From the NCBI RefSeq assembly GCF_019880245.1, contig NZ_CP082286.1, positions 186,001 through 250,000 on the forward strand: a stretch of 64,000 nt of DNA, read 5' to 3'. Under the pieces are notes generated by a model. It ran no database searches and was not told where the DNA came from. It was given only the letters and a program-made list of their open reading frames with translations. Made by a program: the position numbers and the translations under genes. Origin of the DNA: Halobaculum roseum (GTDB lineage: Archaea > Halobacteriota > Halobacteria > Halobacteriales > Haloferacaceae). Below, piece after piece: positions 14,825-15,448 of the stretch. Numbering within the stretch: the stretch's first letter is position 1; each line of letters begins with the position of its first letter.

Positions 14825-14853
14825 CCTCGGGGGGACCCCTCCCGTAACTGCGT

Positions 14854-14937
14854 GCGAGGGTAGCCAAGCCTGGAAACGGCGGCGGACTCAAGATCCGCTC
14901 CTGTAGAGGTCCAAGGGTTCAAATCCCTTCCCTCGCA
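14854..14937 (+). tRNA. tRNA-Leu(CAA)
   Basis: A class II tRNA of 84 nt. The acceptor stem is GCGAGGG (14854-14860) pairing with CCCTCGC (14930-14936), discriminator A at 14937, no encoded CCA. The anticodon stem GCGGA/TCCGC encloses loop CTCAAGA, giving anticodon CAA, which reads UUG leucine codons. A long variable arm (TCCTGTAGAGGTC region) is as expected for leucine. The T stem AAGGG/CCCTT encloses TTCAAAT. I see no intron in the anticodon loop. Confidence 0.97.
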
Positions 14938-14941
14938 TCGC

Positions 14942-14994: not shown

Positions 14995-15150
14995 AAACTC
15001 ACTCGGAACACCGACGAGCCGCAGGTTCACCGTGATCTCAGATTCGCTTCTCTATAGGCGCTGCGAGCACACCGAGGGGTGCAGCGAACGGCGATCGAAC
15101 CGACCGACGAACCGCCCGTTGGTTTCGGCCCGCCTAAACTTCGAAACCGA

Positions 15151-15173
15151 CTTATTCGATTAGGCTGGCCTAA
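15151..15173 (+). promoter_or_regulatory. TATA box plus DtxR-like iron-box operator
   Basis: A BRE-like CGAAACC (15142-15148) and TATA CTTATT (15151-15156) are followed by TTAGGCTGGCCTAA (15160-15173), a perfect 6-bp inverted repeat with a 2-bp spacer. The half site TTAGGC resembles the TTAGG halves recognised by DtxR/IdeR-family metal regulators, which in haloarchaea include SirR and Idr proteins. A further GCCTAA half site lies at 15132-15137. The operator sits between TATA and the start at 15179, so binding would repress. The regulator identity is inferred. Confidence 0.65.
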
Positions 15174-15178
15174 ATCAT

Positions 15179-15448
15179 ATGTCGAGAGAGGCGGGCCGGG
15201 ACGAACGCCCGGTATCGAGACGCGAGAACGGTCGCGACGATGTGACGGATCGACCGAGAGCGGAACGATCGACGATGCTCGCGCGAACGTGGGTGATCGC
15301 GGGCTGCTACGGCGACCCCGCCGATCACGGGGTTCCGGAGTTGCCGAAGTGGGAAGTCAGCCGGAACGGTGACCGGCTGTCGTTCGTCGCCGAGGACGGA
15401 GACGAGCCGTTCATCAGCGCCGGGAACCCGGTTCGGGCGCGACGCTGA
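15179..15448 (+). CDS. Small protein behind an iron-box promoter, unknown
   Basis: An 89-residue ORF whose ATG at 15179 is about 25 nt from the centre of the TATA box, as expected for a leaderless haloarchaeal transcript. Residues 1-32 are charged and look non-conserved. Residues 33-89 (from an internal ATG at 15275) look more like a folded domain: TWVIAGCYGDPADHG, then KWEVSRNGDRLSFVAEDGDE and a basic end. The true start could therefore be 15275. I do not recognise the family. The operator suggests metal-responsive expression, with a link to iron or manganese metabolism as inference. Confidence 0.5.
   Translation: MSREAGRDERPVSRRENGRDDVTDRPRAERSTMLARTWVIAGCYGDPADHGVPELPKWEVSRNGDRLSFVAEDGDEPFISAGNPVRARR

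Follow-up and report, generated by a model that had tools for sequence, protein, structure and literature searches.

The small open reading frame at 15179..15448 (+) of the window, by which we mean the whole 64-kb stretch of DNA that was analysed, is probably an iron-starvation gene of a DtxR-type regulon that is predicted to be repressed through a twin operator box, to encode a core accessory protein and to lie at a locus from which a binding-protein gene has been lost. The reading of the locus as controlled by iron through a DtxR-type regulator is well supported by comparative genomics. Membership of a metal regulon, which an earlier note on this DNA had put forward, is borne out by boxes before iron-acquisition genes of the same genome, by conservation of the site at orthologous loci and by box-bearing siderophore operons elsewhere. 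As such, the window gene would provide archaeal iron acquisition with a definite small-protein component that can be tested.

The twin operator and its distribution

Positions 15124–15181 read in order TTCGGCCCGCCTAA–acttcgaaaccgacttattcga–TTAGGCTGGCCTAA–atcat–ATG. The perfect 6+2+6 palindrome TTAGGC-TG-GCCTAA at 15160..15173 (+) forms the proximal operator box and is followed after 5 bp by the leaderless ATG at 15179, while the distal box TTCGGCCCGCCTAA at 15124..15137 (+) lies at a distance of exactly 36 bp and is degenerate both in the window and in its orthologues. The 22-bp spacer between the two (15138..15159, +) carries a BRE/TATA-like promoter (cgaaaccg and acttattc; stretch cgaaaccgacttattcga) which matches the spacer consensus of 61 twin promoters. 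The position of the palindrome between BRE/TATA and a leaderless ATG, as first described in the earlier note, is seen at these places and is kept in three congeneric genomes (G009, G002 and G005), with the geometry of box, promoter and ATG maintained at 3/3 orthologous loci. At these loci the start and length of the 89-codon frame are identical to those in the window and the degenerate box is likewise found at a spacing of 35–36 bp. The additional half site remarked upstream is real but does not stand alone, since it is the right half of the degenerate second box at 15124–15137. Perfect TTAGGCNNGCCTAA occurs once in the 64-kb window, as the proximal box; allowing up to two mismatches gives two matches against 0.25 expected, a number reached in 0/100 shuffles. 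The spacing TTAGGC-N4-GCCTAA was also tried and gave no match. A tRNA-Leu(CAA) gene is located at 14853–14939 of the window, just 5′ of the locus.

Comparison across genomes indicates a haloarchaeal pattern in which twin boxes flank the BRE/TATA element and end 4–5 bp short of the start codon. Within 956,217 bp of DNA from 102 loci of the small-protein family described below, perfect TTAGGN4CCTAA occurs 159 times compared with 0–2 occurrences of any one of 29 further palindromes with the same half-site composition, a count that reflects conservation as well as abundance because the family loci share ancestry. Box pairs lying within 120 bp of each other in these loci are spaced by 36 bp (n = 56), 35 bp (n = 6), 34 bp (n = 5), 37 bp (n = 4) or other distances (n = 4). 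In 50 of the 61 twin promoters, some of which represent the same pair in reverse as both strands were scanned, a start codon follows the end of the proximal box after 4 or 5 bp, and alignment of their 22-bp spacers yields the BRE/TATA-like consensus. Of 382 haloarchaeal genomes, 180 contain the exact twin pattern, and no control match appears among the matches listed; the window genome lacks an exact twin owing to its degenerate distal box. Among 30 exact-twin loci that were fetched, a crude gene caller placed a gene within 250 bp at 16, these genes encoding mostly binding-protein homologues together with aminotransferase-like proteins (one of which was checked and is an Aminotran_3 protein), a DtxR protein and a FecCD homologue; at the other 14 it found no gene within that distance. 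The operator rule that emerges, two 14-bp palindromes 36 bp apart with the proximal one 4–5 bp from a leaderless start, is usable for haloarchaeal iron regulons. No mention of the twin box or of the small-protein family was found in the literature listings searched.

As a check, the earlier note had proposed to look for this operator 5′ of siderophore and iron-transport genes elsewhere in the genome; the search located it before Peripla_BP_2, FecCD and FAD-reductase-like genes. There are nine copies of TTAGGNNNNCCTAA in the 3.72-Mb genome, compared with one for the reversed control, and four perfect TTAGGCNNGCCTAA sites. With up to two mismatches TTAGGCNNGCCTAA shows no enrichment genome-wide (35 sites compared with 104 for the reversed control) and weight is thus placed only on perfect or near-perfect boxes. 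Three of the nine TTAGGNNNNCCTAA sites lie just 5′ of Peripla_BP_2 binding-protein genes (C1:122108, C1:126597 and C3:14052), and single sites precede genes for a FecCD permease (C1:120800), a FAD-dependent reductase-like protein (C1:127839) and a protein with an RGP (glycosyltransferase-type) domain (C3:233560). Another lies before a small gene that has a GMC oxidoreductase gene behind it (C3:228639), and one is the window gene's own box. The remaining site, a perfect TTAGGN4CCTAA at C3:316526-316539 (L043:8527), lies approximately 160 bp 5′ of a gene with a molybdopterin-binding (Oxidored_molyb) domain and is a possible second link of iron control to molybdenum enzymes. A one-mismatch TTAGGCNNGCCTAA site at C1:1866889 precedes a further Peripla_BP_2 gene.

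A sister box, TTAGAC-N2-GTCTAA, is found 5′ of the gene for a DtxR+FeoA regulator (G000 C1:2535377-2535390; L045:5378) and 5′ of a ZnuA-type transporter gene (G000 C1:2343229-2343242; L046:5230), and these sites appear to form a distinct, autoregulated Zn/Mn circuit. DtxR-type regulators sense several metals, and this, together with the occurrence of the sister box before such genes in the same genome, could be taken to mean that the box at the window locus is read mainly as an operator for manganese, or for another metal, and not for iron. This appears unlikely, since the sister box, which differs at one position in each half site, is associated with the Zn/Mn-type transporter, whereas TTAGGC goes with Peripla_BP_2 and FecCD. 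The iron and Zn/Mn circuits look separate because it is the sister box that precedes the FeoA-domain regulator and ZnuA-type genes, and they seem to be kept apart by a single base per half site.

The small-protein family and its gene neighbourhoods

The 89-residue product, which gave no Pfam match at E 1, had been regarded as unrecognised and alone. This did not hold: its residues 33–89 belong to a family of 57–58 residues which an HMM search detects in 96 of 391 genomes of the haloarchaeal class. The family is thus present in about a quarter of the sampled haloarchaeal genomes and is without an entry in the family libraries searched, with no NCBIfam match for five members, no Pfam match above cut-off for four others and, for one relative, a sub-threshold match to DUF7382 (E 0.01); PDB sequences likewise contained no homologue. 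The 102 loci are those of 103 sources that matched the model, L063 having been dropped for want of a match, and eight partial matches (two in G252, one each in G029, G169 and G209, two in G289 and the second place in G103) were not fetched. Named members occur in Halobaculum, Halorubrum, Natrinema, Natronomonas, Halorientalis, Haloplanus and other genera, the nearest of these to the window protein being from Halobaculum, and a contig scan with one peptide pattern returned 42 loci with haloarchaeal names. Occurrence outside the Halobacteria was considered and rejected: a sample across the phylum gave matches in 15 of 392 genomes, none more distant than the same order.

The alignment shows invariant or nearly invariant residues at M1, A3, R4, W6, A9, P15, Y18, P21, P24, A49, P52, R56 and R57, and the C-terminus is exactly Arg-Arg in 96 of 102 members. 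The window core fits these features at W6, P15, P21, P24 and the C-terminal Arg-Arg, and presents a histidine at family position 18, where tyrosine is usual. Metal binding by the small protein was rejected as a function: no Cys or His column is conserved, and for this reason the protein probably holds no metal itself. The core is predicted to fold as an N-terminal helix with a three-stranded sheet (mean pLDDT 87, pTM 0.53), and structure searches with this model gave nothing above noise (Foldseek best E 1.4, VIA best Z 2.7). Four rows whose core was incomplete or which carried additional C-terminal residues were left out of the tree, which was built from the other 98 of the 102 rows on 58 columns and leaves many forks open; in it the window protein and its three orthologues form a clade (100/96), and 12 XdhC-linked members together with five others lie on one side of a supported branch.

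At 61 of the 102 loci the small gene stands directly behind a gene for a siderophore-binding protein (Peripla_BP_2), in 41 cases with a gap of exactly 0 bp, and at 54 of these 61 loci a perfect box lies inside the operon or in the 400 bp upstream. The other seven comprise five operons near the edge of the fetched DNA, L129 at a contig end and L143, which was missed at the threshold. FAD-reductase-like neighbours are frequent companions in the 61 binding-protein loci (28 with the FAD1 type and 24 with the FAD3 type, possibly overlapping). A further 13 loci place the small gene behind XdhC, usually with CoxE, and have no box in any case (0/13), so that the link of the family to iron control is not universal. 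The remaining 28 loci are of other kinds, and a box is present at 18; at the window locus itself no binding-protein gene directly precedes the small gene. In one locus, L059:176-10642, the small gene is preceded by molybdenum-hydroxylase-like and MoxR-like genes, CoxE and XdhC and followed by genes for a binding protein, FecCD and an ABC ATPase, all in a row, the names molybdenum hydroxylase, MoxR and CoxE being given here by sequence inspection only.

Leader, core and the solitary state of the window gene

The window frame falls into two parts which evolve differently. Codons 1–32 (15179..15274, +) form a neutrally evolving leader in which dN is close to, or slightly below, dS (dN/dS 0.49/0.60 and 0.60/0.55 for two of the six ortholog pairs), and codons 33–89 (15275..15448, +) encode the core MxARxW…PVxxRR*, for which the HMM match (E 1.7e-30), the 96-row alignment and the predicted fold provide evidence and in which dN is well below dS for the same two pairs (0.14/0.41 and 0.15/0.55). 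These values, approximate with only 32 and 57 codons, indicate that the leader is nearly unconstrained and the core constrained. By this comparison residues 1–32 are probably not functional, and the functional product is most likely the last 57 residues (33–89). The identical length and frame of the extension in four species might instead be thought to favour a functional protein of all 89 residues with the arginine-rich residues 1–32 serving as a nucleic-acid or membrane binding tail. We regard this as improbable given that amino acid changes accumulate at about the silent rate in codons 1–32 and far more slowly in codons 33–89, and that many members outside the window clade start at the core or have unrelated leaders.

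Other solitary members suggest how such a leader could arise. At these loci a short ORF begins at the leaderless ATG and in several stops directly before the core ATG. The L116 leader is a siderophore-binding-protein tail (66.7% over 30 residues, E 1.3e-11), and the one in L160 begins with the end of a binding protein's Tat signal (E 6e-4) and contains in another frame a C-terminal end typical of siderophore-binding proteins. Weak leader matches such as that of L120 are left uncounted because 8 of 300 shuffled leaders reached E 0.01. On these comparisons, survival of operator and small gene beyond the transporter gene is indicated in at least two lineages (L116 and L160). No similarity to binding proteins was found for the 32-residue leader of the window, and loss of the binding-protein gene is consequently proposed here by analogy: the window gene is probably a retained part of a siderophore-binding-protein operon, and codons 1–32 probably a relic of the lost upstream coding region. 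In the solitary member L056, some 286 bp ahead of the core, a short tandem repeat (AVRTERA…) fills the leader ORF, whose stop overlaps the region where the small gene begins.

That some solitary loci stem from broken operons, and that a family match is absent from 6 of the 11 genomes of the genus (the window's own genome being among the 11), could also indicate that leader and operator are a decaying relic and that the small gene is being lost without a function of its own. This account has little to commend it in view of the purifying selection on the core, the intact frame in four species and the other solitary loci that keep operator and small gene together. A spurious ORF, with the box serving another transcript, is most improbable: a low coding score in a simple codon model speaks for it, set against an HMM score above 100 bits, a family found across the class, exact C-terminal conservation and flanking genes which in the same model point away or start far off.

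For this gene, probably retained from a siderophore operon, we propose that under iron sufficiency a DtxR-family repressor, probably as two dimers, would occupy both boxes; these flank the BRE/TATA element and would cover the leaderless transcript start, so that TBP/TFB and RNA polymerase would be kept off. When iron is short the repressor would be released and the small protein made. Loss of the binding-protein gene at the window would have left the operator, the start codon, the neutral 32-codon leader and the small gene. The small protein probably works in trans, since the solitary gene is still under purifying selection, and our best guess is a cytoplasmic accessory protein of iron acquisition. 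The position behind binding-protein genes, the FAD-reductase-like neighbours and the branch linked to XdhC point to an accessory role in metal-related machinery and not to a part of the transporter. A bolder version, which we offer tentatively as possible though doubtful, is a general accessory for both siderophore uptake and molybdenum-hydroxylase maturation that serves other uptake systems in trans, with the twin operator clamping the BRE/TATA element. Were it true, the small gene with its iron switch would have been kept after loss of the transporter gene because the small protein serves other uptake systems in trans.

Candidate regulators and known systems

The genome encodes three strong PF01325 proteins, at C1:2706322, C1:2535185 (with a FeoA domain) and C3:13513, and three more barely above the cut-off. 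The gene at C3:13513 adjoins a box and a binding-protein gene. The protein at C1:2706322, encoded near apparent suf genes, is one which we take to resemble TroR (HVO_0863) by its neighbourhood. The DtxR-family protein at L047:5323-5760, near apparent suf genes, has a cysteine-containing tail (CPDC…C); both it and the short C3 type seem to be without most of the classical DtxR metal ligands. Short C3-type proteins are encoded within the fetched stretch at 15 of the 102 loci, the other two types at none. A hand tally at 100 bits places the short type in 17 of 30 exact-twin genomes compared with 4 of 39 others (Fisher p 5e-5, uncorrected for kinship). The short DtxR protein (L040:9514-9954, contig C3) was considered as sole reader of the box and rejected, as 13 twin-bearing genomes lack it; the short type is thus associated with twin boxes and not required for them.

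The bacterial DtxR/IdeR box is a 19-bp element of the type TTAGG-N9-CCTAA with half sites 9 bp apart. The window box shares with it the TTAGG/CCTAA half sites and, as predicted here, the metal-dependent repression of iron uptake. It does not have the classical 9-bp spacing of the 19-bp element: the half sites of the window box and of the aligned boxes are 4 bp apart, and the box is doubled at 36 bp. Closer relatives are found in the haloarchaea, where PMC11349517 names Idr1/Idr2 of Halobacterium as DtxR-family iron regulators and TroR, Idr and SirR as iron regulators of Haloferax. With the Idr1/Idr2 regulon the present system has in common DtxR proteins in the genome, a promoter palindrome of TTAGG type and siderophore-uptake targets; the 36-bp twin box around BRE/TATA and the unnamed small-protein target would distinguish the present system from it. 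The family is a member of ferric-siderophore ABC uptake operons (Peripla_BP_2/FecCD/ABC ATPase) at 61 of 102 loci, whereas the window gene stands without transporter genes. In the CoxE–XdhC maturation operons of molybdenum hydroxylases, XdhC is directly followed by members of one branch of the family, which differ from the window gene in having no iron box and in their position on a separate branch of the tree.
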